Assembly (NCBI GenBank): GCA_002710685.1
Contig: PALD01000035.1
Span: forward strand, 21,431-85,430
Length of the DNA stretch: 64,000 nucleotides
DNA from: Cytophagaceae bacterium
GTDB lineage: Bacteria; Bacteroidota; Bacteroidia; Flavobacteriales; Flavobacteriaceae
Direction: 5' to 3'
Part shown: piece after piece, positions 49,500 to 64,000 of the stretch
How the letters are laid out: the number at the start of each line of letters is the position of its first letter
Position numbering within the stretch: the stretch's first letter is position 1
The notes under the pieces: model-generated
The model's input: only the letters and a program-made list of their open reading frames with translations
What the model was told of the DNA's origin: nothing
Database searches by the model: none
Translations under genes and position numbers: made by a program

Positions 49500-50432
49500 A
49501 TGGATATACAAGCAGAGATAAACTCACAATCAGGTTTTGGAAACCTTGAACTCCTTGCCAGCCAGGTGGTAGAGGGCTTTATCTCTGGCATGCACAAGAG
49601 TCCATTTCATGGATTCTCGGCAGAGTTTGCCGAGCACAAGGTCTACAATACGGGAGAAAGCACAAAACACATAGACTGGAAGCTCTATGCCCGTACTGAC
49701 AAGCTGTACACAAAGCGGTATGAAGAAGAAACCAACCTGCGCTGTCACCTTATCCTGGATGACAGCAGCAGCATGCACTACCCCCCTCTTGAGAAGAATC
49801 CGGGCATAGCAAACCTGAACAAGGTTGCCTTTTCCGTCCTGGCCTCTGCCGCTATCATGAACCTGATGAAAAAACAGCGTGATGCCGTTGGGATGAGCAT
49901 CTATGGCAAGGAGTTTGAATTTTATGCCCCCGAGAAGGGCAGCGAGCGTCACCACCATATGCTGCTGGACCAGTTGAACAGGACCATCACCACAACACCC
50001 ACAAAAAAACAGACGGATACCTACGCAAACCTACACTTCATCGCCGAAAAGCTCAAGCGGCGTTCACTGGTTTTTCTCTTTAGTGACATGCTGCAACATG
50101 ACAAGGAGCAGGATGAGCTTTTTAGCGCGTTGCAACACCTTAAATACAATAAGCATGAGGTAATACTCTTTCATACTTATGATGGCGCTACGGAGCTGAA
50201 TTTTGATTTTGACAATGCCCCCAAGAAATTTATTGATGTGGAGAGTGGCAACCACATCAATGTCTTTAGCGACAACATCCGTGAAAATTATAAAAAACAG
50301 GTGCAGGCCTATTTTACAGAATTACGGATGCGTTGTGCCAAATTTCAAATAAAATACCTAGAGGCTGATATTCAGCGCGGTTTTGGCCCCATCCTTACCA
50401 CATTTTTAGTGGAGCGGCAGCGATTTCAATAA
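49500..50432 (+). CDS. DUF58 (vWA-like) protein
   Basis: This 310-residue protein has the DUF58 core: EHKVYNTGESTKHIDWKLYART (about 45-66) and a MIDAS-like DDSSSMHY. The vWA-like fold is followed by VFLFSDMLQHDKEQDELF. In Bacteroidota DUF58 genes usually sit beside MoxR ATPases and BatA/B-type vWA genes; none is next to it here. Role unknown; chaperone-type or envelope stress functions have been suggested for the family. Confidence 0.87.
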   Translation: MDIQAEINSQSGFGNLELLASQVVEGFISGMHKSPFHGFSAEFAEHKVYNTGESTKHIDWKLYARTDKLYTKRYEEETNLRCHLILDDSSSMHYPPLEKNPGIANLNKVAFSVLASAAIMNLMKKQRDAVGMSIYGKEFEFYAPEKGSERHHHMLLDQLNRTITTTPTKKQTDTYANLHFIAEKLKRRSLVFLFSDMLQHDKEQDELFSALQHLKYNKHEVILFHTYDGATELNFDFDNAPKKFIDVESGNHINVFSDNIRENYKKQVQAYFTELRMRCAKFQIKYLEADIQRGFGPILTTFLVERQRFQ

Positions 50433-50458
50433 GGTATTAAAAATTTCTTCAAAATAAT

Positions 50459-50488
50459 TTGCGCACATTAAAAGAGGGTGTATATTTG
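50459..50488 (+). promoter_or_regulatory. Promoter of tRNA-Asp
   Basis: TTG at 50459-50461 and TATATTTG at 50481-50488 are 19 bases apart, matching the -33/-7 consensus of this phylum. The tRNA 5' end is 60 bases further on, so the precursor has a leader that must be trimmed. Confidence 0.65.
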
Positions 50489-50548
50489 CATCCGCTAAGA
50501 AAGAAAGGGGTGACCCTTTATTTTTTGCGATGGTTCTTAAAGAATAAT

Positions 50549-50622
50549 GGTCTGGTAGTTCAGTTGGTTAGAATATCTGCCTGTCACGCAGGGGGTCGCG
50601 GGTTCGAGTCCCGTCCAGACCG
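50549..50622 (+). tRNA. tRNA-Asp (anticodon GTC)
   Basis: This 74-base cloverleaf has acceptor stem GGTCTGG paired with CCAGACC, D-arm AGTTCAGTTGGTTAGAAT and anticodon loop CTGTCAC with GTC at 50583-50585. The T-arm is GCGGGTTCGAGTCCCGT and the discriminator base is G. CCA is not encoded. It lies directly upstream of a tyrosine recombinase gene and is the likely attachment site of an integrated element. Confidence 0.97.
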
Positions 50623-50647
50623 CTAGGAATCGGTCTTAATTCCTACA

Positions 50648-50688
50648 AAAGCCTGTAAATCACTTGATTTACAGGCTTTTTTGTTTTT
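50648..50688 (+). terminator. Terminator after tRNA-Asp
   Basis: AAAGCCTGTAAATC (50648-50661) and GATTTACAGGCTTT (50666-50679) form a 14-bp perfect stem with a 4-base loop, followed by a T-run. Confidence 0.9.
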
Positions 50689-50873
50689 GTTCAATAGCGT
50701 TTGATACCATATAATTTCAAAAAAAAGGTGAGTGATTCGGTGAGTCTTTTTTATCATCAAAAACACTCACCGCGAGGGCACGTAAAGTGTTAAAATTAAA
50801 AGCCTTACACGATTCCTTTAACATTTTTTAAATAGGACTTTTGTACCTTAATTGACTCATTTAAAAGCTCAAA

Positions 50874-52115
50874 ATGATGTCAAGTTCTATTTCAATTCTT
50901 TTCTACCCTAAAAATTCAGCTAAAAAATCACTAAAAGCAGCTACAATCTACGCCAGGATTACGGTTGATTCCAGACGTAGCGAATTTTCAACACAGCACA
51001 AGGCCACAAGAAAATGGGATTCTAAAAGTGGCAAGATGAGTGGTTTTGGTGCAGAGTCGAGAATGGTTAACCGACATTTGGACGATATCCGCACCAAAAT
51101 CTATGAAATCCATGACAGGCTACTAAGGGATGACAAGCCTGTTTCAGCCCAAATCATCCGCGATATCTATCAAGGCAAGGATACCGAACAACGTACACTT
51201 TTGGAATTTTTTCAGGAGCATAATGATGGGATGGAGCGTCTTGTGGGCAAAGGTTACTCTAAAGGGACCCTGCAACGCTATAAGGCAGCGCAAGCCCATC
51301 TAACAAACTATTTAAGTTTTCTCAAAAGAAATGGGGACATCCCTTTACGGGAAGTTGATTACCAATTTATATCAGGGTTTGAGCATTACCTCAAATCAAA
51401 AAAGAATTGTGCACACAACACAGCTACAAAATATATAGTCAATTTTAAGAAAATCATGCGCCTGGCCCTGGCTCATGAATTTATAGACAGAGATCCTTTT
51501 TTCCATTGGAAGTCCAATTGGAAAACAAAGGAACGAGAATTTTTAACAGGCGAAGAATTGAATACCCTTGCCAATAAGGAATTTTCAATTGCCCGACTGG
51601 AACAAGTGAGGGACATCTTCCTTTTTTGCTGCTTCACCGGCCTAGCCTATGCCGATATACATAAACTAAGTCCAGATAATATAATTCGGGGGTTAAATGG
51701 GGAATACTGGATCAAGACCAAAAGGCAGAAAACAAAAACCCTTAGTAGCATACCCCTACTCCCTACAGCAGAACAGATTCTCCATAAATATGAATACCAT
51801 ACCTGTCAAAAAGAGCAAAACAAATTATTACCTGTCCTGACCAATCAAAAGTCTAATGCCTATTTAAAAGAAATTGCTGATATATGTGGAATCAAGAAAA
51901 ACCTGACCACACACTTGGCAAGGCACACATTTGCAACTACGGTAACGTTGTCTAGAGGAGTGCCTATGGAAACAGTGAGCAAAATGTTAGGTCATACTTC
52001 CATTAAAACAACCCAGATCTATGCTAAGGTCTTGGACACAAAAATCAGTTCGGACATGGATATTTTAAAACAAAAAAAACCTTTAATCGGCAGCGTTTCC
52101 CAGAAAACAAAATGA
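50874..52115 (+). CDS. Tyrosine recombinase (phage/transposon-type integrase)
   Basis: This 413-residue integrase has an arm-binding domain (about 1-100), SAM-like core-binding domain (about 105-205) and catalytic domain (about 220-400). Catalytic residues are His347 and Arg350 in HLARH, His374 in MLGHTS and nucleophile Tyr383 in QIYAK. The first catalytic Arg position reads TGLAYAD (255-261) with Ala, the form seen in many Bacteroides-type recombinases. It starts 250 bases after a tRNA-Asp gene, the typical position for an element that integrated into the tRNA 3' end. The accessory genes to the right are probably its cargo, at least in part. Confidence 0.9.
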   Translation: MMSSSISILFYPKNSAKKSLKAATIYARITVDSRRSEFSTQHKATRKWDSKSGKMSGFGAESRMVNRHLDDIRTKIYEIHDRLLRDDKPVSAQIIRDIYQGKDTEQRTLLEFFQEHNDGMERLVGKGYSKGTLQRYKAAQAHLTNYLSFLKRNGDIPLREVDYQFISGFEHYLKSKKNCAHNTATKYIVNFKKIMRLALAHEFIDRDPFFHWKSNWKTKEREFLTGEELNTLANKEFSIARLEQVRDIFLFCCFTGLAYADIHKLSPDNIIRGLNGEYWIKTKRQKTKTLSSIPLLPTAEQILHKYEYHTCQKEQNKLLPVLTNQKSNAYLKEIADICGIKKNLTTHLARHTFATTVTLSRGVPMETVSKMLGHTSIKTTQIYAKVLDTKISSDMDILKQKKPLIGSVSQKTK

Positions 52116-52162
52116 AATTTCCGGAAAATACTATTTAATGCTATTTAGGGAATTTCACTAGT

Positions 52163-52239
52163 CCAATGCTTGTCCACTACTAGTCCAAGAATAAGTCCAG
52201 AAACGGGACACTAGAATCCCATCAGTGGACAAGCATTGG
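52163..52239. repeat. 16-bp perfect inverted repeat with 45-base spacer, downstream of the integrase
   Basis: CCAATGCTTGTCCACT (52163-52178) is the exact reverse complement of AGTGGACAAGCATTGG (52224-52239). The spacer holds further copies of AGTCC and two small stems (GTCC/GGAC and GGGA/TCCC). No gene overlaps it. It could be a recombinase or excisionase binding array, a replication or transfer origin, or a structured RNA. It is not followed by a T-run, so it is not a standard terminator. Confidence 0.75.
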
Positions 52240-52368
52240 TATCTTATATAAACATAATTAAACATATAAACATTAAAAAAGCCAGCCCTTTTTAAAAAAT
52301 AAAATTCCTTTAATTGCAAATAGAAATTAAATCCAATAAAAAAACGCTTTTTTTAAGAATTTTAAACC

Positions 52369-52734
52369 ATGAGAATTGCGCAAAAACAGTTCACAAATAT
52401 ACTTGAAGGTAAATTATCCGAAAGTCGCTTAGAAGCCTTTAAAATTCCGATTGTAAACGAATATGAAGGGGAGCATAAAATTTACTCTTATTTAATACTA
52501 AATATGCTCTTCGTTAAACTGGGAAAATTAAATTTCTTCTTTGATCGTAAACTCTCAAGCCATAATTTACTCCAATGGGCTTGGTTTCTAAACTGTTCAA
52601 AAAAAGTCCTAATCCAGCTACTTACCGATTATTCCCGAAATTATCAAAAGGATAAGTGGCAAGAGATTAAACTTGGCATTCTGCGGTTTTTATTTAACAA
52701 ATTCTCAAATGCTCTATATCGTAATTATTTATAG
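52369..52734 (+). CDS. Hypothetical protein, element-associated
   Basis: This 121-residue basic, aromatic-rich protein (HNLLQWAWFLNCSKKVLIQL, FLFNKFSNALYRNYL) has no family I recognise and no signal peptide or clear transmembrane helix. It lies between the integrase and a CheY-like gene on the same strand and is AT-rich compared with the core genes. The frame is short, so it may not be expressed; position suggests element cargo. Confidence 0.5.
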   Translation: MRIAQKQFTNILEGKLSESRLEAFKIPIVNEYEGEHKIYSYLILNMLFVKLGKLNFFFDRKLSSHNLLQWAWFLNCSKKVLIQLLTDYSRNYQKDKWQEIKLGILRFLFNKFSNALYRNYL

Positions 52735-52773
52735 TTTTACCGATGATTTTTATATCCCTATTCCATTTTTTAC

Positions 52774-53148
52774 ATGTCAAAACCAAAAGTTTTTTTAGTT
52801 GATGACCATAAAATCATGAATTACGTACTAGGTAAAATGTTGGTATTACAAGGTGTTACAGATTGCATTTTTGAATATGATGACCCTCTATTGGCCCTTA
52901 AGGATTTAAAAATTAAAAAACCAGACTTGATTCTGTTAGATTTAAATATGCCCAATTTTTCTGGGTGGGATTTTTTAGATGAACTACATGAAATTGGGCC
53001 AGACCATACTAAAGTTATATTGATTACTGGTAGTAGCCGCCCTGAAGATAAGGCGCAAAGTAAAAAATACCCGATGGTAGTAGATTTCTTAAAAAAGCCC
53101 CTTAGCAAGGAGAATATATCTTCTATTGGAAAGAGATATAATTCTTGA
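52774..53148 (+). CDS. Stand-alone receiver domain (CheY-like)
   Basis: This 124-residue receiver-only response regulator has the acidic pair in VDDH, phospho-acceptor Asp in LLDLNMPNFSGWDF, switch residue in ITGSS and Lys in FLKKPLS. There is no output domain, so it must act through protein contact, for example in a phosphorelay. No partner kinase is adjacent, though a two-component pair lies 1.6 kb further right on the other strand. Confidence 0.83.
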   Translation: MSKPKVFLVDDHKIMNYVLGKMLVLQGVTDCIFEYDDPLLALKDLKIKKPDLILLDLNMPNFSGWDFLDELHEIGPDHTKVILITGSSRPEDKAQSKKYPMVVDFLKKPLSKENISSIGKRYNS

Positions 53149-53409
53149 AACCCTCTTATGTTTTTGAATTAAAACAACTTATCTACAAGAAAAGGCTGGT
53201 GATGATAGATTCATTTCACTACGCTTTTACAATATTCATCAGACACTTGGCTGCTCACAAATCAGTAAAATAGTTATCACTTTAAGCGATAAGTATTCTC
53301 TTTTCTGACCTTTAGAATTACATGACTTTGCAAATAAATGAAGTCTTGTCCTTTTCCGAATCCTAGGATTAAACTCCTCAAACTTGTTGTCTTTTGGAAT
53401 TTTATAAGG

Positions 53410-54192
53410 CTAAATAGTAAAAGGATTTTTAAGAATAACATCAAATGCGATATAATGGATATCCTTTCTGAAGGTTTTTCCCAGCAATTCGTTCATATAC
53501 CCCACATCAAAGACCATTTTGTTTGAGGGATTGGTATAGGAAAAATATAGGCAAAACCTACTCTCCTTATATCTCCACTTGTCCCAATGCTCTTGCTTTT
53601 CAGTCGCAAAAAGCAACTCGGTACTAAGAAGTAATTTCTTGCGCAGGGCGTGGTCCAGGGACCACGATAATTTTTCCTTGAAACGGGACCTGAATTGCAT
53701 GGTTTCTTCAAACCTTTTGAAGTACGGGTCAAAGAAAAAGCGCAGCTCCGGTCGATAGGTGCTTGAGAATTCCAATGTATGTGAACCTATTTGATACGAT
53801 AGCTTCCCATACGTCCTTATTTCTTGCCTGGCATCAGGGCTATCCTTGGCATAAGGTGGAATTTCACTATATCGGTCCTGCCATCTATAGCTAAGCGCAC
53901 CGCTATATTTCCAGTGTTTGGCAAAATGATTGGAGATTTCTTCATTGACAACATAGATTGAAGCGCGTTCCCCAGGGTTATAATCATCCGGTCTACTGCT
54001 GCGTCCCATACCCATATAAGTGCTATTGGTCACCTGATGTGAGTCGTCAAGGTTTTGTTTAAAGCCTACGGCAAACCATTCCCCTGTATGAATTTCCCCA
54101 AGACCAGGAGGGGTGAATTGAGCCTTTATGGATTGGCTGATATAAAAAGTGCCAACGAGTATAATAATGTGCCTTATCTTTTTCCCTAACAT
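53410..54192 (-). CDS. DUF2490 outer-membrane-type protein
   Basis: This 260-residue protein has a signal peptide (about 1-24, ending SIKAQ). The mature part is beta-barrel-like (WKYSGALSYRWQDRYSE, LEFSSTYRPELRFFFDPY) and matches the DUF2490 family of Bacteroidota outer membrane proteins of unknown role. It overlaps the PepSY-like gene by one base and is third after the two-component system on the same strand, so it may be an output of that system. Confidence 0.78.
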   Translation of the reverse strand: MLGKKIRHIIILVGTFYISQSIKAQFTPPGLGEIHTGEWFAVGFKQNLDDSHQVTNSTYMGMGRSSRPDDYNPGERASIYVVNEEISNHFAKHWKYSGALSYRWQDRYSEIPPYAKDSPDARQEIRTYGKLSYQIGSHTLEFSSTYRPELRFFFDPYFKRFEETMQFRSRFKEKLSWSLDHALRKKLLLSTELLFATEKQEHWDKWRYKESRFCLYFSYTNPSNKMVFDVGYMNELLGKTFRKDIHYIAFDVILKNPFTI

Positions 54193-54635
54193 TAGTCAAG
54201 CCTTTTTTCCATAACACTTCCCCCTTGATCAATAACCACTTCCCAGTCCTTCTTAAAAAAAGAATTCAATTCCATTTCATAGACTACCTGGTCTTTTTTC
54301 GTAATCTTCACAAGGTCATCAATAGAGTAACCCTTAAAGTCATCGTTTAGCCTTTCCCTTACCGTATCTGGCAAGTCCATTACGGAATAATCTTCCTCAT
54401 GCAGCACAACATCTCCTCCAGCAGTATACCATATTTCATGATCATTGCCCCACCCCATTTCAAATTCAACAACATAGTGTGCGTTATTCCTTTCCCATTC
54501 TATATCCTTGGCACCTTCAAAATCGGCGGTAAAGTTGTTCAATACAATAGAGGGTACTTGTTCTTGATAAATATCCTGCGCATGGAGTATGCCTATGGAT
54601 AATAATGACAAAATTGAAAAAATGTAAATCTTCAT
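54192..54635 (-). CDS. PepSY-like (beta-lactamase-inhibitor-like) exported protein
   Basis: This 147-residue protein has a signal peptide (1-19, ending LHAQ) and two PepSY-like half repeats (WERNNAHYVVEFEMGW...YSVMDLPDTVRERLNDDF and then VKITKKDQVVYEMELN). Such proteins in Bacteroidota sit beside two-component systems and are thought to sense or regulate at the periplasmic face. It lies 69 bases downstream of the histidine kinase gene on the same strand. Confidence 0.75.
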   Translation of the reverse strand: MKIYIFSILSLLSIGILHAQDIYQEQVPSIVLNNFTADFEGAKDIEWERNNAHYVVEFEMGWGNDHEIWYTAGGDVVLHEEDYSVMDLPDTVRERLNDDFKGYSIDDLVKITKKDQVVYEMELNSFFKKDWEVVIDQGGSVMEKRLD

Positions 54636-54704
54636 ATCGGTATATTTTAAGTATATACCTCAAATAAACTATATGATTTAGGAAAGAAATGGGAATTGGG
54701 ATTT

Positions 54705-55982
54705 CTAAAAATGTATTTTAAAGCAGTGCATGCCGTCAACATAGAGATAACGGATTCTAAAATCATAAAGGTTTGTGATAGCCTTCACAATGGCGAGGCC
54801 CAACCCAGAACCACCACCTTCCTTATTTGACTTTTCAAACCTATTAAAAATGGTTTCATTGGCCAAAGGACCGTGGGTGGCCGTATTATAGATACTCAAT
54901 GTTCTTTTTTTCAACCTTACTTTGATCAATCCTTCCTCTGTATTATGGATAATTGCATTTTTAAGCAAATTGGAGATTACAATATTTGCGAGGGCGGCAT
55001 CCATCACAACATTGAGATTGCTCTTCTCTTTAATTTCTAGCTTGATATTTTTAAATTGGACTAAGGGCCTAAATTCCTCAACTAAATTGAATACAATGGT
55101 ATTTATCAAGATTTCCCGATTGTCAAAAATCTCTTTATTATCAATCTTAGAAAGCAGAAGTAGGGACTTATTCAGCCTTACAAGCCGCTGAATAATATCG
55201 TACACATGGGTAATATCATTCGCAAGTGACTTATCCAGCTGATGGTTCTCAATCATCAATTCCAGTTTATTGCTGGCAATGGCCAAGGGTGTCTGCAATT
55301 CATGAGATGCATTTCCTATAAAGGCTTTCTGCTGCTCAAAAGTCTCATTCCCTTGTACAAGCAGCTCCTTAAGAGCGATTTCTAAATCATTGAACTCCCT
55401 GGTTTTGGTATTTACGTGGGGAAGGCTCCTGCTGCGCCCTAGCTTAAATTCCTTCAATTGGGCAAGCAGTTTATAAAAGGGGTCCCATAGCCTTTTGAGT
55501 ACGATGTTGTTGATCAATATAATTCCTGCGATTAATATTGCATAGAGCCAGATGGTATCAAGAAAAAGTTCTGCAATTAGGTCATCTTCTTCAACCATTG
55601 AATTGGCCACTTTTAACTCATAAAACTGTCCATTATTTACAAAGGCGGTGGTTAACATGCGCACCGGCTCGGGCTCGGGCGCCTCATCATCAGCATCCTG
55701 CATATAGATAATGGTGTCCTGGTAAATGTCTCTTCGGGACAGTGCTTCTCGTTTGGGCAGTTTTTTTATCGTGAAAAAACTTTCGTCAAAATATTTTTTG
55801 GTAAGCAGGCTAGGATCTTCCTCGGCATTTTTAATTATCAATCGCTTATAGTTCTCAAGGCCTTCATCTATGCTCCCCTTTATTTCATTGAGCATGTCTA
55901 TGTAAAAAATGCACGCCCAGAGTGCCACGATCAACAAAATGGAAAAAGACAGGTACTTGAGGGACTGATTGAGGAGTTTCAT
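54705..55982 (-). CDS. Sensor histidine kinase with periplasmic domain
   Basis: This 425-residue kinase has transmembrane helices at about 12-30 and 140-160 enclosing a roughly 105-residue periplasmic domain. HisKA follows with the phospho-His in GNASHELQTPLAIA, and HATPase with NLLKNAIIHN and GGGSGLGLAIVKAI. The short ATPase tail (YVDGMHCFKIHF) suggests a compact CusS/BaeS-like kinase. It overlaps the response regulator by four bases. Confidence 0.88.
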   Translation of the reverse strand: MKLLNQSLKYLSFSILLIVALWACIFYIDMLNEIKGSIDEGLENYKRLIIKNAEEDPSLLTKKYFDESFFTIKKLPKREALSRRDIYQDTIIYMQDADDEAPEPEPVRMLTTAFVNNGQFYELKVANSMVEEDDLIAELFLDTIWLYAILIAGIILINNIVLKRLWDPFYKLLAQLKEFKLGRSRSLPHVNTKTREFNDLEIALKELLVQGNETFEQQKAFIGNASHELQTPLAIASNKLELMIENHQLDKSLANDITHVYDIIQRLVRLNKSLLLLSKIDNKEIFDNREILINTIVFNLVEEFRPLVQFKNIKLEIKEKSNLNVVMDAALANIVISNLLKNAIIHNTEEGLIKVRLKKRTLSIYNTATHGPLANETIFNRFEKSNKEGGGSGLGLAIVKAITNLYDFRIRYLYVDGMHCFKIHF

Positions 55983-56656
55983 TTTTTGACCATTTTGTAC
56001 CCTACGCCATATATAGATTCTATTTCTAGGCTGGCCATGGAGTCCCTTAATTTTTTACGAAGGTGCTTGATTTGATAATAGACAAAATCAAAATTATCGG
56101 CTTGGTCCATAAAATCCCCCCATACGTGTTCCGCTAGGGCTGCCTTTGTGACCAAGCGGTTTATGTTGAGCATAAAATAATTGAGTATATCAAACTCCTT
56201 TCTGTTAAGGGCTACGGGGTTTCCCGATATTTCACACTCCCGTAGGCTTAGGTCAAGAATGGTATTGCCTATTTCAACCATGTTTCTACCATCTAGTTTC
56301 TTCCTTCTTAGCACGGCTTTTACCCTGGCGTTGAGTTCTGCTAAATGGAATGGTTTTACCAGGTAATCATCTGCCCCTTCTTGTAATCCCTTTACCCTAT
56401 CATCTAGGGAATCCTTGGCAGAAATGATAATGATGTTTTCAGTCCTTTTGGCTTTTTTCAATTCGCTTAGGATATCAAAACCGCTACCATTGGGGAGCAT
56501 AATATCTAAGAGGATACAATCGTATTCATATACAAAAACCTTCTCAATGGCAGTATGGAAATCAGTAGCCGTTTCCACTAAAAAAGACTCACGCTCCAGG
56601 GAATCCTGTATGCTCTGCAGCAACTGGGGCTCATCTTCCACAATTAAGATTTTCAT
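55979..56656 (-). CDS. OmpR-family response regulator
   Basis: This protein has 225 residues from the ATG at 56656 (MKILIVEDEPQLLQSIQ); an upstream ATG adds 20 unlikely residues. The receiver has Asp51-type phospho-site in LLDIMLPNGSG, switch in IIISAKDS and Lys in LVKPFHLAE. The winged helix ends QADNFDFVYYQIKHLRKKL. It forms a regulator-kinase-PepSY-DUF2490 unit, all on the minus strand. Confidence 0.88.
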   Translation of the reverse strand: MKILIVEDEPQLLQSIQDSLERESFLVETATDFHTAIEKVFVYEYDCILLDIMLPNGSGFDILSELKKAKRTENIIIISAKDSLDDRVKGLQEGADDYLVKPFHLAELNARVKAVLRRKKLDGRNMVEIGNTILDLSLRECEISGNPVALNRKEFDILNYFMLNINRLVTKAALAEHVWGDFMDQADNFDFVYYQIKHLRKKLRDSMASLEIESIYGVGYKMVKK

Positions 56657-56846
56657 GGCTCTAATGTATTTTTGAAATTGGGAAAGATATGGGAATACGG
56701 GATATAAGCACGCCATTTATAAAACTTGCTTGTTTCACTAATATCTTTTGATAGGAAAACATCCCCAAATTATTCAATATTCTTGCTCAACTAAAGATGT
56801 CCTTAACGATAAGACAACAAGTTTGAATTAAAATTGTCAGCTTAGA

Positions 56847-57611
56847 TCAACACCATATTTCATTGGCTTCAGTCAGGATAACGGGGGTAGTATCAGTTAC
56901 TAATATGGTATGTTCATGTTGTGTGACATATCCACCCCTGTCACCTACCAGGGTCCATCCATCTTTGAGGGTTATAACGTTCCATGATTTTGTGGAAATA
57001 AAGGTTTCAATCGCCACGGTTGAATTATTTTTAAAACGCTCCCTATTGCTTCTTACCCGGTAGTTCAATATATCTTCTGGTGCTTCATGCAAACTTCTTC
57101 CCACTCCATGACCTGCCAGGTTTTTAATGACCCTTAAACCTCGTTTTTTAGCCTCTAGTTGAATTACATGTCCCACGTCTGCAATCCGCGTTCCCGCCTT
57201 TATATTATAAATTGCCTTCTTTAAGATGTCTCTTGAAGCATCAACCAGCGCTTGATGATTATGGATATCCTCCCCAAGCACAAAGGATTCCCCGTTATCT
57301 GACCAAAACCCATTCAGCTCTGCGGAAACATCTATATTGATCAAGTCACCCTCCCTTAAAATCCTGGTCTTTGAGGGTATTCCATGGGCAGCTTCACTAT
57401 TTACACTTATACAGGTATACCCAGGGAAGGAGTAGGTCAAAAAAGGAGCTGAGCGGGCCCCATATTTCTTAAGTATGGAAGCTCCATAATTATCGAGTTC
57501 CATGGTGGACATGCCTACCTTGGCATATTCTTTCATTAACTTTAGTGTAACGCCCACCGCTTCACTTACCCTACGCATTCCTTCCAACTCAGCTTCTGTA
57601 CTAATCGACAT
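56847..57611 (-). CDS. map: Type I methionine aminopeptidase
   Basis: This 254-residue pita-bread metallopeptidase has metal ligands and active-site residues in GIPS (AHGIPSKTR), INIDVSAELNGFWSDN (Asp, Asp), GHGVGRSLHE (His), IETF (Glu) and QHEHT (Glu). The usual GYHGD reads GFWSDN, a variant form. It removes the initiator methionine. Its place in the accessory region suggests an extra copy, because the housekeeping map is usually linked to ribosomal protein genes. Confidence 0.85.
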   Translation of the reverse strand: MSISTEAELEGMRRVSEAVGVTLKLMKEYAKVGMSTMELDNYGASILKKYGARSAPFLTYSFPGYTCISVNSEAAHGIPSKTRILREGDLINIDVSAELNGFWSDNGESFVLGEDIHNHQALVDASRDILKKAIYNIKAGTRIADVGHVIQLEAKKRGLRVIKNLAGHGVGRSLHEAPEDILNYRVRSNRERFKNNSTVAIETFISTKSWNVITLKDGWTLVGDRGGYVTQHEHTILVTDTTPVILTEANEIWC

Positions 57612-57772
57612 CTCTTAACGCTTAAAGTGAAAAACAAAATTAAACCTAATTACATTACTTACATGTCCTTGACACCCCTAGGTTATATATAAATCCAGAT
57701 TCCCAGATGTTTCCCTATTTCCATTGGATATTTACCTAAAAGACGAGGTTTCTTAACGCATTAAGCAATCAA

Positions 57773-58468
57773 ATGGAAAAAGGAAATAAAAAAAGTAATA
57801 TCCCAAAACTTGTCTCGGGAATACTCCTGGGGGGCACATGTCTTTGCTATTTTTTAATCCCTGATGTCCAAAGCTTTTTAAACGAGGCATGGAACATTTT
57901 GACAAGTGATGACGAACAAAAAATAAAAGCCTGGGTGGATGGCTTTGGCTGGTACGGACCCCTCATCCTGATTGTCGCTATGATTGTTCAAATGTTTTTA
58001 TTGATTATTCCCTCTATTGCCCTTATGGTGGTTTCAGTATTGGCCTATGGCCCATATTGGGGCAGCCTAATTAGTATAACGGCTATATTCCTGGCTTCTT
58101 CGGTAGGATATGGTATTGGCAAGTACCTGGGCCAGGCCTTTGTTTTAAAATTGCTTGGCGAAAAAACCAAAGAAAAGATTGAAGGCCTTGTAGATGACTA
58201 TGGATTTTGGGCGGTTATCGTAACCCGTCTCAATCCACTACTGTCCAATGATGCGATAAGTTTTGTTTGCGGTCTGCTAAAAATGAAATATTTCAAATTT
58301 ATATGCGCAACCATCGTGGGCATCCTTCCCCTGACCGTATTTATAGCCATTTTGGGCAAAAACATTCAAAGCCTAAAAACCGGCCTGCTATGGGGTTCTC
58401 TGGTTAGCTTATTGATTTTTGCAGGGTATATCTGGTGGGATAAAACCAGAAAAAGCAAAAAGCACTAA
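57773..58468 (+). CDS. TVP38/TMEM64 family membrane protein (VTT domain)
   Basis: This 231-residue protein has five to six transmembrane helices and the VTT signature VSVLAYGPYWGSLISI, then FLASSVGYGIGKYLG. A re-entrant-type segment ends with VTRLNPLLSNDAISFVCGLLKM. Family members act in lipid or metal homeostasis (DedA-like). No neighbour points to a substrate. The extended C-terminal basic tail (DKTRKSKKH) is unremarkable. Confidence 0.83.
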   Translation: MEKGNKKSNIPKLVSGILLGGTCLCYFLIPDVQSFLNEAWNILTSDDEQKIKAWVDGFGWYGPLILIVAMIVQMFLLIIPSIALMVVSVLAYGPYWGSLISITAIFLASSVGYGIGKYLGQAFVLKLLGEKTKEKIEGLVDDYGFWAVIVTRLNPLLSNDAISFVCGLLKMKYFKFICATIVGILPLTVFIAILGKNIQSLKTGLLWGSLVSLLIFAGYIWWDKTRKSKKH

Positions 58469-58511
58469 AGTAAAGCTGCTTAGCGAAAACAAAATGGACG
58501 TACTCAAGTTG

Positions 58512-59420
58512 CTATTTAAACCTAAGCACGGCCAGCAGTGGGTAATGGTCAGATGGAAGTCTTCCTTCCTGAACCTCAAGGCTGATTTCTTTAGGGAAAT
58601 CCCCACGTTCAATTACAGTCTTTACCTCGTCTTCATCAAGATGGTAGATATCGGTTAAAATCCCATGCTTAAGTACCTCGATTCCCTTGGTCACAAAAAT
58701 ATGATCAATCCGCTCATCAGAATTTACATCGGTATTAAATCCATTATAGGTTCCGTTTGCGCCATACACTAAGGGCGCTATGTCAAACGCATCTGTCACT
58801 AAAGGAGACTGTTCAAAAACCTTAAAACTATCACTGTGCTGGTCAACATTAAAATCTCCGGTAAGGATAACCGGGGCTCCCTTTGCAATTTGCTTAATCT
58901 CGTCAAGGATTAAATGGGCGCTCTCGCTTCTAGCCTTCACCCCTATATGATCAAAGTGGGTATTGAAGAAATAGAATACCTTACCGCTGGATTTATCCTT
59001 AAATTTTCCCCAGGAGCAAATCCTAGGAAGTACGGCATCCCATCCTTTCAAGGGCTTTTCTGGAGTTTCTGAAAGCCAAAAATCCCCTTTATAAAGTAAT
59101 TCAAACCTATCCTTTTTAAAGAAGATGGCGGAATGCTCCCCCGCCTTTTTACCATCATCCCTACCCACACCTATACGGTCGTACCCTGGTAAATTGTCTT
59201 TGAGATAGACCAGCATGTGCTCTAGACCTTCTTGAGTACCCACAATATCGTAGTCATGAAATAGGATAAACTTCGCCACGGTTTCCTTCCTATAATTCCA
59301 ATTGTTAAGGGAGTCTGCAGGGTTATCATACCTAAGGTTAAAACTACCCGCTCGCAAATCTTGGGTATAACAGTTGCTTTCTAAGCATGCGCTCAACAGC
59401 AGTAAAAAAATATACTTCAT
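58512..59420 (-). CDS. Exported endonuclease/exonuclease/phosphatase-family hydrolase
   Basis: This 302-residue protein has a signal peptide (LLLSACLESNC may serve as lipobox). The EEP fold has the Mg-binding Glu in GTQEGLEH, NTHFDHIG, catalytic TGDFNVDQH, and the C-terminal SDHYPLLA (Asp-His). Members of this group cleave phosphodiesters in nucleic acids, inositol phosphates or lipids. Export suggests a nucleotide or phospholipid substrate outside the cytoplasm; the exact one is unknown. Confidence 0.8.
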   Translation of the reverse strand: MKYIFLLLLSACLESNCYTQDLRAGSFNLRYDNPADSLNNWNYRKETVAKFILFHDYDIVGTQEGLEHMLVYLKDNLPGYDRIGVGRDDGKKAGEHSAIFFKKDRFELLYKGDFWLSETPEKPLKGWDAVLPRICSWGKFKDKSSGKVFYFFNTHFDHIGVKARSESAHLILDEIKQIAKGAPVILTGDFNVDQHSDSFKVFEQSPLVTDAFDIAPLVYGANGTYNGFNTDVNSDERIDHIFVTKGIEVLKHGILTDIYHLDEDEVKTVIERGDFPKEISLEVQEGRLPSDHYPLLAVLRFK

Positions 59421-59599
59421 AATTAATTCTTAAGATGTCTATTTGTTGAAAATTAACTACTCACCCCAACAAATACATATTTATTGGGAAGATTATGGCA
59501 ATTTTTTACCTGCATTCAATTATCCTTAAAATAACTCAATTAATTTAGCACTAATACCCCCTTAATGTTCCAGTAAATATCGGTCATTTCAATGATTTT

Positions 59600-59824
59600 A
59601 TGGGCCTCTTGAGAGTAAATATGATAGGCTTAAGGCAGGCCAACAAATGTATGCAGCTCTCAGCTATCGCCTACAACCTTAAGAAATACCTGAAATTCAC
59701 TCAAAAACGGGTAAAAAGTGGGGCAGGGATGCTCGGCTTTTATTTAAAGTTTGCAATGACGTTAAATCAGGAATATAAGTCCATTTTAAAGGGACTTCAT
59801 TTTGCTAATTTACAAACGGTATAA
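59600..59824 (+). pseudogene. Transposase C-terminal remnant (IS1182-like)
   Basis: This open frame of 74 codons is preceded by ATG but has no plausible N-terminal region. The segment ANKCMQLSAIAYNLKKYLKF is the conserved C-terminal block of IS1182/IS5-group DDE transposases. The catalytic domain is missing, so it is a dead fragment. A 20-bp hairpin follows at 59832. It lies between the phosphodiesterase gene and the cassette region. Confidence 0.7.
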
Positions 59825-59831
59825 AACTAGA

Positions 59832-59851
59832 AAACCGCTTAGAAGCGGTTT
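59832..59851. repeat. Perfect 20-bp palindromic hairpin beside the transposase remnant
   Basis: AAACCGCTT (59832-59840) and AAGCGGTTT (59843-59851) pair around a two-base centre. It may be the old terminal repeat of the insertion sequence or a terminator-like structure. Confidence 0.55.
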
Positions 59852-59883
59852 AAATGAATGTGTTTTCTATGAATTAGGGACTT

Positions 59884-59910
59884 GTGCAACGGTTACCGGT
59901 GTTGGGCATA
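59884..59910 (-). other. attC-like recombination site after the SIR2 gene
   Basis: On the minus strand the site reads TATGCCCAAC, then a short GGTTACC-type dyad, then GTTGCAC. TATGCCCAAC (59910-59901) is the exact reverse complement of GTTGGGCATA found at the start of the SIR2 unit, at 61171-61162. That complementarity is what an integron cassette needs to fold its own site. The right core GTTGCAC fits GTTRRRY imperfectly. Confidence 0.5.
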
Positions 59911-59911
59911 G

Positions 59912-61153
59912 TTATTTTAATTCGTTTTTTATCAGTTGTGCATTATCACACGCTTCCATTAATCCGTTATACCAAATACTTATGGGCAATTCTTTATTTG
60001 GTGAAAATTCAAACGACTTATTGTCTTTATAGTATTTTACTTTTGGTGGAATTCCATCAATTCCATTACCTAAAATTGCATTACATCTCAATGTTTCTGT
60101 TAACCCATTAGCCCAATTATCTGACCTATAAAATTGTCCGTCAGTTTCGTCACTTGCCCAATCAATTATAACCGCTTTTCTTATTTTATTGTTGTCATAT
60201 CTGTGAATAGGAAAAGAACTATTTAAATGTTTATCCCCGAATCCATAGCCAATAAACAAATATGAATCGGCTTCGTTTGCAAGTTGGTCTAACTTACTGA
60301 AATACTGTTTAAATGGTGTTTTTAACAGTTGATTTGGTTTGTCTAAACCAGTTATTATATTTGAATTTAAATGAAGAATACCGCTACTAGAATTATTAGT
60401 TCTTCGTTGACCTGCACCAGGACTAAACTTTTTACTTAAATCATCTTGCCAAAAAATATGATGATGGTCAATTTCATTTAATTCACGAGTGTCAAAATGA
60501 ACTGAACCGTGTAAATGATAACAAAAATTCCACTTATTATTGTAAAATTCAGAAATGTCGAACTTTCCAGTTTCTTTATTAAAGCCTGTAGACAAGTCAG
60601 GAAGAGTTGATAAAATTACGTTATCATAGTTTAGATTGATAAAGCCTAATTCATACTCTTCTTTTAGACTATCAAATAAGTACTTAAGTTTTAATATTTG
60701 TTGCGATTTATGTTCTTTTAGTTTTGAGCATTTGTCTCGGAAATATCTTAGTAGGTCATCAATTAAATATCCAATTAAGTATTGGAAATCCATTCCATCT
60801 GCAATTTTTCTATTACGATGAGATAAAATTTCTGGAAATGATTTAAAATCAATGAAAGCATTTATTGGATGGTTTTCGCCCCAACTATGGTCTTCTGAAA
60901 TAGATGCTATATTTTGTATTGTAAAAAGAGTTTGTTCAAAATTTGGTTTTTGGTAATAATCATTTGTAGATTTTTCCTCAAGTCTTTTTACAACTTTGTT
61001 TTTTACCCAAGTATAGAGATTTTCTCTTTCATTATCTGCTAATGGAAGGTATCGACTAGCCCAACTGTTAAATAATTTGTCTATTTCGGTAACAGTAGGC
61101 ATTCCGAAATCAATTGATGCACCAGCACCTATAATTATTAACAGTTTCTTCAT
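59912..61153 (-). CDS. SIR2-domain protein (probable NADase-type defence effector)
   Basis: This 413-residue protein starts with the SIR2 nucleotide-binding loop GAGAS (9-13). It carries the Asn of the NAD-cleaving centre in NLNYD (173-177), catalytic His in YHLHGS (212-217) and the sugar-binding loop IGYGFGD (301-307). This is the layout of SIR2_2 proteins that deplete NAD in phage defence systems such as DSR and Thoeris relatives, rather than of protein deacetylases (no zinc cysteines). No partner gene is adjacent, so it is either a single-gene system or the toxin of a system with an unrecognised partner. It is enclosed by cassette-like sites on both sides and is AT-rich. Confidence 0.8.
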   Translation of the reverse strand: MKKLLIIIGAGASIDFGMPTVTEIDKLFNSWASRYLPLADNERENLYTWVKNKVVKRLEEKSTNDYYQKPNFEQTLFTIQNIASISEDHSWGENHPINAFIDFKSFPEILSHRNRKIADGMDFQYLIGYLIDDLLRYFRDKCSKLKEHKSQQILKLKYLFDSLKEEYELGFINLNYDNVILSTLPDLSTGFNKETGKFDISEFYNNKWNFCYHLHGSVHFDTRELNEIDHHHIFWQDDLSKKFSPGAGQRRTNNSSSGILHLNSNIITGLDKPNQLLKTPFKQYFSKLDQLANEADSYLFIGYGFGDKHLNSSFPIHRYDNNKIRKAVIIDWASDETDGQFYRSDNWANGLTETLRCNAILGNGIDGIPPKVKYYKDNKSFEFSPNKELPISIWYNGLMEACDNAQLIKNELK

Positions 61154-61161
61154 TTTCTAAT

Positions 61162-61297
61162 TATGCCCAACGGTTGGCGGTATGAAATCGTTGGGGATTG
61201 TGGGTTACTTTCTTGTCCAGTTACACTGAACTTGATGCGTGGCAGAATGTTTGAATAACAGCCTAACCCCCAATGTTTTATACCGCGTGTTAGCTGC
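61162..61297 (-). other. attC-like site between the acetyltransferase and SIR2 cassettes (136 bp)
   Basis: Reading the minus strand, GCAGCTAAC (61297-61289) opens the site and GTTGGGCATA (61171-61162) closes it. Inside is a large imperfect stem: 61286-61268 pairs with 61196-61177, differing by one extra base and a few mismatches. Length, bulged stem and end motifs (RYYYAAC/GTTRRRY type) all match integron attC sites of 57-141 bp. Confidence 0.6.
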
Positions 61298-61315
61298 TGT
61301 GTTTTATTCAATTCG

Positions 61316-61840
61316 TTATAAGTTACTTTCTTTAAATTTTGTTTTGAATTTATTATCTGCTTCTATGATTTTCTTAAAGTCAATCATATCCGGGTTATAT
61401 ATTAAATCGTAGTCTTTGTCTTTCGGTCTAAAATGATTTACACCATAAGCAACACTATTTTCAGGTATGTCTTTTGTAATTATTGCTCCAGCTGCTATCA
61501 CTGAATTCTTTCCAATTAAAATTGGTCCTAAAATTTTCGCTCCATCCCCAACCACAACATTTTCATCAATTATTGGACTACCGACATTTTCCCATTCTTT
61601 ACTCACTTTGTTGTATTTCATATTAGAACCAATAGTTACATTTTGGTAAATGACAACATTACTACAAATTTTCGCTGCAGCAATTGTGCAACCTCTTGCG
61701 TGATGGGCAAACAATACGCTTTTATCCATTTCACTGCAATGAATTTCACAGCAATAAAATTTTTCCAATAAATTCTCAGCTATTTGTCTCAGTAATTTAT
61801 TTTTTGAATGGCAATTTATATTCACTAATTTTTCAAACAT
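61316..61840 (-). CDS. Hexapeptide-repeat acetyltransferase (serine O-acetyltransferase-like)
   Basis: This 174-residue protein is left-handed beta-helix-like, with hexapeptide repeats IAAAKICSNVVIYQNVTIGS, VVVGDGAKILGPILIG and SVIAAGAIITKDIPENSVAYG. A catalytic His is likely at FAHHARG (about 45-51). The family includes serine and xenobiotic acetyltransferases. Genes like this are frequent integron cassette cargo. It is bounded by GTTAGCTGC upstream and GCAGCTAAC downstream, complementary to each other. Confidence 0.75.
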   Translation of the reverse strand: MFEKLVNINCHSKNKLLRQIAENLLEKFYCCEIHCSEMDKSVLFAHHARGCTIAAAKICSNVVIYQNVTIGSNMKYNKVSKEWENVGSPIIDENVVVGDGAKILGPILIGKNSVIAAGAIITKDIPENSVAYGVNHFRPKDKDYDLIYNPDMIDFKKIIEADNKFKTKFKESNL

Positions 61841-62137
61841 ATAATCTAATTTTTAAATTTTTACGGTTCTGTAACATTGCAGCTAACTTGTTATATCAAC
61901 ACTAAATATATACATATCCCCTCAAAATTTACGGGATATCAACACTTTTGAGTTGTGTTTATAAAAATAACGAATTGGCTTTGAACTAGTTTACGGAATT
62001 CCTTAATCAAGAATCTGTATAGCTATTTTAGGACGGGTCACAATGAATAAATGCTAAATAGATACTCCATGGATAAAGCATGGATACTGTATGAAGAGTG
62101 TATGAAAACAGCACCCTGGAAACTTAAAATCTAAAAC

Positions 62138-62371
62138 TTATTCCCTTATAGCTTTGTCTGGCCAAAAGTCTTTCGGAGAGCATTGGAGTACTTCTGCAAT
62201 AGCATTGAGATGATTGATATTATATTTTGCTCTTCTTGTATTTGATTCTACGTGTGAAATAAAGCTATCACTCATTCCTAATTTTTGCGATAGGGCAATT
62301 TGAGATAGATTTTTCTCCTTCCTTCTTTCTTTAACCCTTTCAATAATATAAGCCTCTACTTTACTTATCAC
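62138..62371 (-). CDS. XRE-family transcriptional regulator
   Basis: This 77-residue HTH_3-type DNA-binding protein (RRKEKNLSQIALSQKLGMSD, then SFISHVESNTRRAKYNINHL) has no sensor domain. It is divergent from the sigma factor gene, with 194 bases between the two start codons, so it may control that promoter or its own. A palindrome GGTACCTGTACC at 62422-62433 lies between them. The N-terminal helix (MISKVEAYIIERVKE) is unlike typical phage repressors. Confidence 0.85.
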   Translation of the reverse strand: MISKVEAYIIERVKERRKEKNLSQIALSQKLGMSDSFISHVESNTRRAKYNINHLNAIAEVLQCSPKDFWPDKAIRE

Positions 62372-62421
62372 AGTCTCTTCTTACGAAGTACAAGAAGTAA
62401 AATATAAACACACTTAACAAA

Positions 62422-62433
62422 GGTACCTGTACC
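62422..62433. promoter_or_regulatory. Palindromic operator candidate GGTACCTGTACC
   Basis: GGTAC/GTACC arms with a two-base centre lie between the divergent XRE and sigma genes. The palindrome is 20 bases upstream of TATATTTG (62453-62460), a possible -7 element for the sigma operon without a clear -33. Confidence 0.4.
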
Positions 62434-62565
62434 ATTATTAAATAGTTTTTACTATATTTGGGGAAATGCTAGAGGATTATAAGCATTTATAGCTATTGGG
62501 TTGCCATTAAGCTATTCAAAGTATACGGCTACCAAGTACACATTTCAATTAATACGGGATTAATA

Positions 62566-63354
62566 ATGTGCTCAAAAACCAAAACACAATTCGAATTATT
62601 TAAACACGGCTGTCCAAGGGCATTCAATGCCATCTATAAACACTACCACCGCCGCATCTATTGGATGGGCAGGAGCCTAGTTCGGGATGTCTTTGTGGTG
62701 GAGAGCCTGGTGCAGGACACCTTTTTGACCCTTTGGGAAAAACGGGAGGATATCGAGTCCCCAAAGCATCTGGTGAATTTCCTTTATACGGTGATTTCCA
62801 GTGAATGCACCTGGTACTACACGCGCCCCAGGAATCAATTCCATCGCAGCGTGTTTGCCCTGGATACCGTCCCCCGCTATCAGGATTATATGTTGGGCCA
62901 TGACCCTGATGATATGGATCATCACTTGATGGATCAACAAAAAAGGCAATTGGAATATGAGCGGGTCATATCCATATTGCCCCTTTTGGGCACACGGCGC
63001 AAACGCCTGATAGAGCTTTGCCTTGAGCACGGTTTTAAGTATGCCACCATTTCCCAGCATATGGGAATCAGTATCACCCAGGCACGCCTCACCATGAAAA
63101 GCACCATCGGGGAGATCAAGAACATACTCCATCAGGGATATATCCGCAAACCGGAAGAAAACTCATTCCCTGTCGGCCATTCCAATGAAATGACCCCACA
63201 GCAGGCACAGGTGCTGGACCTACGCTGTGAGCAGCACTATTCCTTTGCAGAGATAGCCACGCAGCTCAACCTCTCGCAGAAGGAAGTACACCGGGCATTT
63301 ACCACGGCCTATAGGTTCCTGCAGGGCCAGGGACGTCACCTAAGATCCGCATGA
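62566..63354 (+). CDS. ECF-type RNA polymerase sigma factor with extra C-terminal HTH, coupled to a Cas12f-like protein
   Basis: This 262-residue sigma-70 family protein contrasts with typical ECF factors of 170-200. Region 2 is at about 16-90 (FNAIYKHYHRRIYWMGRSL, LVQDTFLTLWEKREDI, FLYTVISSECTWYY) and region 4 at about 130-190 (LLGTRRKRLIELCLEHGFKY, ISITQARLTMKSTIGEIK). A second region-4-like HTH occupies 207-252 (TPQQAQVLDLRCEQHYSFAE, LNLSQKEVHRAFTTAYRFLQ). No anti-sigma factor is nearby. The stop codon overlaps the next start as ATGA at 63351-63354, so the downstream Cas12f-like protein is made by translational coupling. Its GC-rich third positions differ from the AT-rich cassettes to the left. 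Confidence 0.85.
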   Translation: MCSKTKTQFELFKHGCPRAFNAIYKHYHRRIYWMGRSLVRDVFVVESLVQDTFLTLWEKREDIESPKHLVNFLYTVISSECTWYYTRPRNQFHRSVFALDTVPRYQDYMLGHDPDDMDHHLMDQQKRQLEYERVISILPLLGTRRKRLIELCLEHGFKYATISQHMGISITQARLTMKSTIGEIKNILHQGYIRKPEENSFPVGHSNEMTPQQAQVLDLRCEQHYSFAEIATQLNLSQKEVHRAFTTAYRFLQGQGRHLRSA

Positions 63355-64000
63355 CCATGAAGACCAAGACACTAAGCCTAACCCGTAAGATCCAGCTCAA
63401 TATAGACCTGGCCGATCATGAAGAACGCAAAGCGGCCATGGATAGGCTCTACGATTGGCAGTATTGCTGTTTCAAGGCGGCAAACATCATCGTCACCCAT
63501 CTGTACTGCCAGGAAATGATACAGGATTTCTTTTACCTTACCGAGGACATCCGGTACAAGCTTGCCGATGTCAAGAAGCACGAAAACGGCATCCTCAACC
63601 GTTCCCGCATCAACACAACCTACCGGGTGGTCTCCGATCGTTTCAAGGGGCAGGTACCCACCGATATCCTGGCCAGCCTCAACAAGAACCTCGAAAGTTC
63701 GTTCCACAAGAACAGGTCCAAGTACTGGAGCGGTGAGCGCTCCCTAAAGAACTTTAGGCGTGATATCGGCTTTCCCTTTTACGCCCGTTGCATTCGGGGG
63801 CTGAGGTATGACGAGGACCGCAATGCCTTTTGCTTCCGGTTGTTCCAGATGCCCTTTTGCACCTATCTGGGCAGGGACTTCTCCGACAAGCGGCCCCTCC
63901 TCCACCGTGTCCTGAAGGGGGAGACAAGGCTCCGTACTTCCGAGATAAAGCTACGGGACGGCAAGATCTTCTGGCTGGCGGTCTTTGATGTCCCACAGGA
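63351..64000 (+). CDS. Cas12f/TnpB-like protein, N-terminal part (continues beyond window)
   Basis: The frame opens at ATG 63351 (alternative ATG 63357) and has no stop to 64000, giving 216 residues. It shows the Cas12f/TnpB start: a beta strand (RKIQLNIDLADHEERKAAM), then a long helical recognition-type region (YDWQYCCFKAANIIVTHLYC, DIRYKLADVKKHENGIL, TTYRVVSDRFKGQVPTDIL, LNKNLESSFHKNRSKYW). A beta-rich return follows (FCFRLFQMPFCTYLGRDF) and SEIKLRDGKIFWLAVFDVPQ, which lines up with the strand just before the RuvC domain in Cas12f1. The RuvC and zinc-finger halves are outside the window, so nuclease activity cannot be judged. Coupling to a sigma factor suggests a role in RNA-guided transcription. 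Confidence 0.75.
   Translation, partial: MTMKTKTLSLTRKIQLNIDLADHEERKAAMDRLYDWQYCCFKAANIIVTHLYCQEMIQDFFYLTEDIRYKLADVKKHENGILNRSRINTTYRVVSDRFKGQVPTDILASLNKNLESSFHKNRSKYWSGERSLKNFRRDIGFPFYARCIRGLRYDEDRNAFCFRLFQMPFCTYLGRDFSDKRPLLHRVLKGETRLRTSEIKLRDGKIFWLAVFDVPQ

Follow-up and report, generated by a model that had tools for sequence, protein, structure and literature searches.

The gene pair and its surroundings in the window

The stretch of DNA analysed here, in the following called the window, is 64,000 nucleotides long and corresponds to G000:C34:21431-85430, where G000 is the organism's own assembly and the last window base is also the end of the contig. At this end lies an ECF-like sigma factor gene (62566..63354, forward strand, 262 aa), which is followed on the same strand by a gene for a putatively nuclease-dead Cas12f protein (dCas12f; 63357..63998). 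The latter is cut by the contig end: its frame is open as far as 63998, contig C34 stops at window base 64000, and the first 214 codons are present if the start found in its relatives is used. The assignment to the ECF type, which had been made from the letters of the window in a first-pass annotation, agrees well with database searches. Pfam detected region 2 (Sigma70_r2, residues 23-87) and two region-4-like parts (Sigma70_r4_2 in two stretches, the best at 207-248), and the search of the PDB aligned residues 7-255 with residues 4-253 of the chain 9n9q_C, named 'RpoE' (E 2.4e-64). A sigma factor cluster from other public contigs (P0122) is 98% identical to the window protein.

The first-pass annotation had also described the two genes as overlapping by ATGA, which stands in part. 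The ATG at 63351 does overlap the sigma stop codon (TGA, 63352-63354). The residue of 63351 is likewise the first one of the database protein P0005, and counted from this alternative start the window contains 216 residues. The dCas12f of the relatives begins at the residue encoded at 63357, which leaves a gap of 2 nt to the sigma stop and no overlap. The pairing of the sigma and dCas12f genes is real and conserved and does not require an overlap.

Upstream, the pair is bordered by a divergent gene for an XRE-type HTH protein (62138..62371, reverse strand; Pfam HTH_3, 4.4e-11). A divergent HTH gene is also found in locus L043 (HTH_3, 3.1e-12), and a weak one on contig C41 of the own assembly (Mga, 0.003, below the cut-off). 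Further away follow a hexapeptide-repeat, acetyltransferase-like protein with 30% GC (61316-61840), which lies between the HTH gene and a SIR2-like protein of defence-type cargo (59912..61153, reverse strand; Pfam SIR2_2, 9.7e-9; PADLOC SIR2, 7.7e-15), and a protein of the endonuclease/exonuclease/phosphatase family (58512-59420). The observation that the pair is GC-rich at third codon positions, unlike its AT-rich neighbours, could be reproduced: GC3 amounts to 0.61 for the sigma gene and 0.74 for dCas12f, whereas it is 0.21-0.26 in the SIR2-like, transferase-like and HTH genes. A GC content of 42-48% was found in the first 48 kb of the window and in five of seven small pieces of other contigs of this assembly, the remaining two having 36%. 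Because most of the genome pieces seen fall into the range of 42-48%, it is the AT-rich cassettes that look foreign and not the sigma-dCas12f pair.

A tyrosine recombinase gene (50874..52115, forward strand; Pfam Phage_integrase, 6.8e-16) adjoins a tRNA-Asp (50549-50623, predicted by ARAGORN), and the GC content, 0.46 at 44 kb of the window, has dropped to 0.37 by 52 kb. The tRNA-Asp and the recombinase possibly mark the left edge of an island which carries the pair and reaches the contig end; a direct repeat of at least 18 nt was not found in window 50400-64000.

Loss of the RuvC site and relation to solved complexes

The missing part of the Cas12f-like protein can be read from P0005, a protein of 367 aa that was found with the genome's second copy as query and is identical to the window fragment in 216 of 216 residues. 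It ends with KAGIELIVG at the same point as 18 complete copies from genomes, and the best 120 of 1048 database relatives all have lengths of 360-374 aa. PADLOC assigns the window protein to Cas12f (7.7e-51), in line with the earlier proposal that the downstream frame follows the Cas12f/TnpB plan.

For the first-pass annotation, the RuvC residues lay outside the window and their loss was a point to be checked. In the alignment with active Cas12f, the Asp of GVDLG in 9nzr and 9nzo corresponds to Ser230 of P0005, and the Glu of QMED in 8j3r corresponds to a Met at a place where the gap placement is uncertain; we take this Asp and this Glu to be the catalytic RuvC residues. The residue after the Met is Asp in P0005 and in one of the 18 complete copies, and Asn in the other 17. 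P0005 stops about 90 residues short of the end of 9nzo and 9nzr. The third RuvC Asp of Cas12f sits in the C-terminal part of the protein, and is thus missing from a chain that ends that early. By alignment, the intact Asp-Glu-Asp of a type V-F nuclease is absent from P0005; the RuvC cutting site is evidently lost, which makes the protein a predicted nuclease-dead Cas12f.

These results also bear on the assumption that we are dealing with a complete transposon-borne Cas12f/TnpB nuclease that has a sigma gene as its neighbour by chance. It is indeed the Cas12f/TnpB family to which the protein belongs. The lost RuvC residues, the absent C-terminal part, the uniform length of the relatives mentioned above and the outcome of the searches in plasmid and phage collections, where only remote matches with less than 30% identity appeared (5 and 2 records, respectively), all argue against this explanation, which we regard as hardly conceivable. 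In the viral contigs searched, no close relative was found either.

Much closer counterparts exist among solved structures. P0005 matches the 'Nuclease-deactivated Cas12f' (365 aa) of the entries 9n9c, 9n9m, 9n9o and 9n9q with E 4e-162, and one of them, 9n9q, matches both window proteins, since it contains RpoE as chain C (E 2e-64). Both proteins match over nearly their whole length, and the solved dCas12f has the same size and C-terminal end as the window kind; the difference is that the dCas12f proteins are only about 62-65% identical. The titles of 9n9c and 9n9m name a guide RNA. In a Foldseek search with the predicted dCas12f model, 9n9m (a dCas12f-gRNA-DNA complex) ranked first together with 9n9c (a dCas12f-gRNA complex); the best matches are Cas12f, and TnpB follows lower in the ranking. 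It must be mentioned that the AlphaFold model is of middling quality, with a mean pLDDT of 76.0 and a pTM of 0.52, and that the five models span pLDDT values from 76 to 40. The matches of P0005 to active Cas12f are weaker (E 5e-45 to 5e-16). The active forms Al3Cas12f (9nzo/9nzr), CnCas12f1 (8hr5) and AsCas12f (7wju/8dzj) have the fold and an alignable stretch in common with the window kind; the aligned ones keep the RuvC residues, and 9nzo/9nzr are longer by about 90 C-terminal residues. Judged by sequence and predicted fold, the window pair is a member of the solved dCas12f-sigma kind.

The first-pass annotation had referred to reports of nuclease-dead Cas12f homologues paired with sigma factors, which fits these PDB entries. 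A preprint of the Sternberg group from 2025 is said to describe how dCas12f and sigma-E proteins from Bacteroidota bring about transcription guided by RNA. Our search by title and abstract returned no paper on sigma-Cas12f pairs; it lay outside bioRxiv and included few subscription papers, and hence says nothing about what is in print.

Conservation of the pair among relatives

The own assembly contains a second pair on contig C41 (L056), whose dCas12f is 85% identical over the shared part. Altogether, 13 of the 99 genomes searched (own genome included) match dCas12f, in G033 with a fragment only, and seven of the 13 have two matches. Among named genomes with close relatives, Leeuwenhoekiella accounts for five of six loci, which would make the host a flavobacterium close to Leeuwenhoekiella. 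Six loci of the Leeuwenhoekiella group (L048-L053) form a second group with 61-63% identity to the C41 protein. As far as these sequences tell, a Leeuwenhoekiella-type genus carries more than one lineage of the sigma-dCas12f pair.

Eighteen loci, the window included, allowed the distance between sigma stop and dCas12f start to be calculated with the dCas12f start of the relatives. It is 1-2 nt in 15 of them and 11, 212 and 751 nt in the other three, so that all but one have the sigma gene no further than 212 nt away (a nineteenth locus, L045, in which the upstream gene is cut off, was left out). This close arrangement is relevant for another explanation, namely that dCas12f acts as a TldR-type RNA-guided repressor or road block and the sigma protein is a normal ECF factor that has no more than the operon in common with it. 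RNA-guided repressors derived from RuvC-dead TnpB are in print: TldR proteins are of this type, among them phage-encoded repressors of a flagellin gene, and they resemble the window kind in being nuclease-dead and in exerting RNA-guided control of transcription (PMC13418256). To our knowledge, TldR proteins have no sigma partner. The window protein further differs from TldR in that its matches to Cas12f are better than those to TnpB. Given in addition that the sigma gene is found so regularly within 2 nt or at most 212 nt and that the closest solved relatives of both proteins share the entry 9n9q, a repressor with an unconnected sigma factor appears very improbable to us.

Structured RNA units behind the dCas12f gene

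A structured RNA after the gene, another point raised for checking by the first-pass annotation, was detected in all 17 complete relatives with downstream sequence; in the window, the contig ends inside the gene, so that its own guide RNA would lie past the contig end. The RNA consists of three hairpins, lies 10-463 nt 3' of the dCas12f stop codon and ends with ATACAAC or a close variant. Tandem units are present in nine of the 17 loci, up to six of them; six were counted in one G004 locus and six in one G002 locus, where three are situated between sigma and dCas12f. Almost all matches to the RNA pattern (42 of 43) are on the dCas12f strand, and the one on the opposite strand, which looks like a chance match, was left out. 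Three loci tried against Rfam matched no family.

Alignment A1 comprises 39 of the 42 units (38 distinct sequences; three units were left out). The three helices comprise 14 base pairs, which are maintained in 97.9% of the cells of these 39 units; changes on both sides of a pair occurred in 22 cells compared to a mean of 5.5 in shuffled alignments. Counted by pairs, 4 of 14 show such a change against 2.8 in shuffles, which is not unusual, since 84 of 500 shuffles reach 4. RNAalifold reported both-sided changes in 7 of 17 pairs. The covariance model R1, built from the 39 units, matched all 13 genomes that encode the protein and none of the nine that lack it. This search covered 22 genomes, with the 150 best first-look places scored per genome, and because 11 of the 13 positive genomes had contributed to the training, the real information comes from the nine empty genomes as well as from G033 and the own genome. 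The latter contains two RNA units on contig C42 and a third one cut by the end of C42.

Recombination sites similar to attC were considered as another identity of the RNA units and rejected: the units occur together with the protein and on the same strand as its gene, and the three hairpins that they form show compensating changes. As a separate observation, tandem repeats of about 150 bp at G004:C34:118823-119599 (L143) appear by eye unrelated to the RNA units.

RNA-guided activation of transcription as the probable function

The first-pass annotation had proposed that the two proteins form an RNA-guided transcription activator, and the findings on the relatives, i.e. the RuvC loss, the downstream RNA and the matches to solved dCas12f-gRNA and RpoE structures, support this reading. 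We put the probability that the pair of ECF-like sigma factor and RuvC-dead Cas12f is such an activator at nearly nine in ten. In the proposed mechanism, dCas12f would bind the three-hairpin RNA as its presumed guide, and the variable tail after the third hairpin would be the guide segment that pairs with a DNA site. The sigma factor would be held or recruited via dCas12f and would bring RNA polymerase, such that transcription could start nearby without a promoter motif. For the binding of RNA and DNA and for the recruitment of sigma, this proposal draws on the solved complexes and on general knowledge of such systems. In roughly half of the relatives, several tandem guides seem to belong to a single pair, and each such locus would then control a small regulon.

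If this is true, transcription starts are set by base pairing of a small RNA and not by a promoter motif. The kind as such is already known from the solved complexes, and the pair is not categorically new. Compared with what the proteins and entry titles of the solved kind show, the covarying RNAs, their tandem arrangement and the cas-gene neighbours of the relatives are new. The locus and its relatives add arrays of presumed natural guides, the model R1 for finding them, and more than one lineage of the pair within a genus.

Presumed guide segments and candidate target sites

The stretch behind ATACAAC is GGCGTGAG or a near variant in most units, after which the sequences differ; in the comparison of 49 units, which was anchored on that motif so that the drop of conservation behind it is partly built in, seven units were without a GGCGTG-type continuation. 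The GGCGTG stretch is either scaffold or a shared seed; since it is common to most units, it would make a strange free guide. The 14-nt match of G011 described below begins after GGCGTG, which argues for scaffold.

GGCGTG-TTCATCTACACTTA is common to two G011 units, and the final 14 letters of this guide recur at G011:C1:1550981-1550994, in an intergenic position 78 bp before a STAS-like gene. The chance expectation for the match is 0.09 genome-wide, before counting the other guides tried. The gene at this candidate target matches Pfam STAS_2 below the cut-off and is followed by a membrane protein, for which Pfam named nothing and whose sequence reads like a polysaccharide flippase. A similar element, CCATTCATCTA (CCATTCRTCTA), is found about 100 bp upstream of the STAS-like gene in five genomes (L192-L196), four with the dCas12f system and one, G005, without it. 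Because of its presence in G005, we regard the site as an older promoter element that is overlapped by one guide. A match comparable to this one was not obtained with other guides. The corresponding pattern GTGTTCATCTACACTTA, searched with 3 mismatches in one genome (G011), gave 15 inexact matches besides the two units, one of them promoter-placed.

The second candidate is the guide of unit u3 in G009, with a match of 15 nt (expected 0.01) in its own locus, situated 14 bp upstream of an HTH gene at the head of a QatA-like defence gene. With the u3 pattern GTGAGCTTRCTTATT (1 mismatch, nine genomes), an exact site was found in one genome only, and five other genomes that have a form of the u3 guide contained no exact site; matches with 1 mismatch appeared in G000, G006 and G009 and twice in G008, a genome without the system. 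As a side observation, matches to another pattern, GTGAACTGTAAACWCAA, recur every ~320-335 bp at G009:C33:776-1776, pointing to another tandem repeat.

No site common between genomes was obtained with the u2 pattern GCGTGACATCTGACTT (2 mismatches, four genomes) or the u1 pattern CTCATCGTATATTWATA (2 mismatches, three genomes), and GTGAACTGTAAACWCAA (3 mismatches, four genomes) gave no convincing common site, one of two shared sites inspected being located inside a long conserved stretch. It should be noted that GCGTGACATCTGACTT and GTGAACTGTAAACWCAA include probable scaffold letters, and targets could therefore be missed. CTCATCGTATATTWATA had four matches with 2 mismatches and a single one with 1 mismatch, in one of the three genomes, which lies antisense at a susD start and was taken as chance and dismissed as a target. 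The genome-wide searches with five guide patterns hence produced one promoter-placed 14-nt match, one 15-nt match in the own locus and nothing convincing for the other three.

About 50 guides were also compared with their own loci of 5-20 kb, where seven exceeded the best of 12 shuffles by 1 to 4. The largest excesses, after setting aside matches to other units, belong to u3 of G009 (15 versus 12) and a G004 guide (14 versus 10); since so many guides were scanned, we count only u3 of G009 as worth following. For 30 of the 59 SusC matches of G001, tried with exact 12-letter matches, none among the matches listed was placeable upstream of susC. When 0.8 Mb of G001 were compared with seven guides, none of the matches surpassed the best shuffle; ten matches of the G001 scan were inspected, two of which are intergenic, one of these antisense between ribosomal protein genes.

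Most of the guides searched thus gave no clear target, which would be expected if the loci were relics, i.e. if a former RNA-guided pair were carried along in islands with guides that match nothing now. The two loci with fragments only (L032, L055) among the 21 loci read point in the same direction. Such decay is difficult to reconcile with the full-length dCas12f frame in 18 of the 21 loci (the remaining one is the cut-off window copy), with RNA helices that show compensating changes and with the co-occurrence of RNA and protein, and we consider a relic quite improbable. For an active RNA-guided activator, the candidates to be switched on are the polysaccharide-export-type operon, the SusCD operons between RNAs and surrounding defence-island genes.

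Loci in front of cas genes

In four of the six second-group loci (L050, L051, L052, L053), cas genes start 1.4-1.6 kb after dCas12f, and no other frame of 150 aa lies in between. G002 has a system of the type I-B kind (Cas7, Cas5, Cas3, Cas1, Cas4) and G004 has Cas9-Cas1, both with a repeat-spacer array; repeat arrays were located in L051 and L052. In G010, which also has Cas9-Cas1, Cas9 is split over two frames. The first cas genes of G011 are the same as in G002, judged by translation only, and its cas3 is shortened and lies before a transposase-like frame. In the stretches read, only two of the four cas operons look intact.

One may speculate that in Leeuwenhoekiella and its kin the pair works as a switchboard which reads up to six tandem guides and commands a small, rewritable regulon of mobile cargo, and that in front of cas genes, as in these four loci, it serves as an RNA-guided on-switch for another RNA-guided system. 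We regard this extended role as rather doubtful and do not rate it higher because only half of the cas operons appear intact.

Defence and SusCD genes near the relatives

On contig C42 of the own assembly (L088), a susC-susD operon stands between two RNA units. It includes two genes of the endonuclease/exonuclease/phosphatase family, the same Pfam family as that of the window gene at 58512-59420. The same SusCD layout is seen in G001 and G006, as judged by length and translation, and C42 also carries a relaxase and an integrase. A CBASS-like cyclase and a 4TM effector are found near the C41 locus, and QatA near the G009 locus; we read further genes on C41 and elsewhere as restriction-modification-like from their translations. 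These neighbours, i.e. SusCD, defence islands and cas operons, would offer a way to test what such systems are for in nature. The contigs C41 and C42 have 36-38% GC compared to 44% of the window contig, and the contamination of the assembly is given as 8.79%; the assembly may mix two organisms, or C41 and C42 may be mobile elements.
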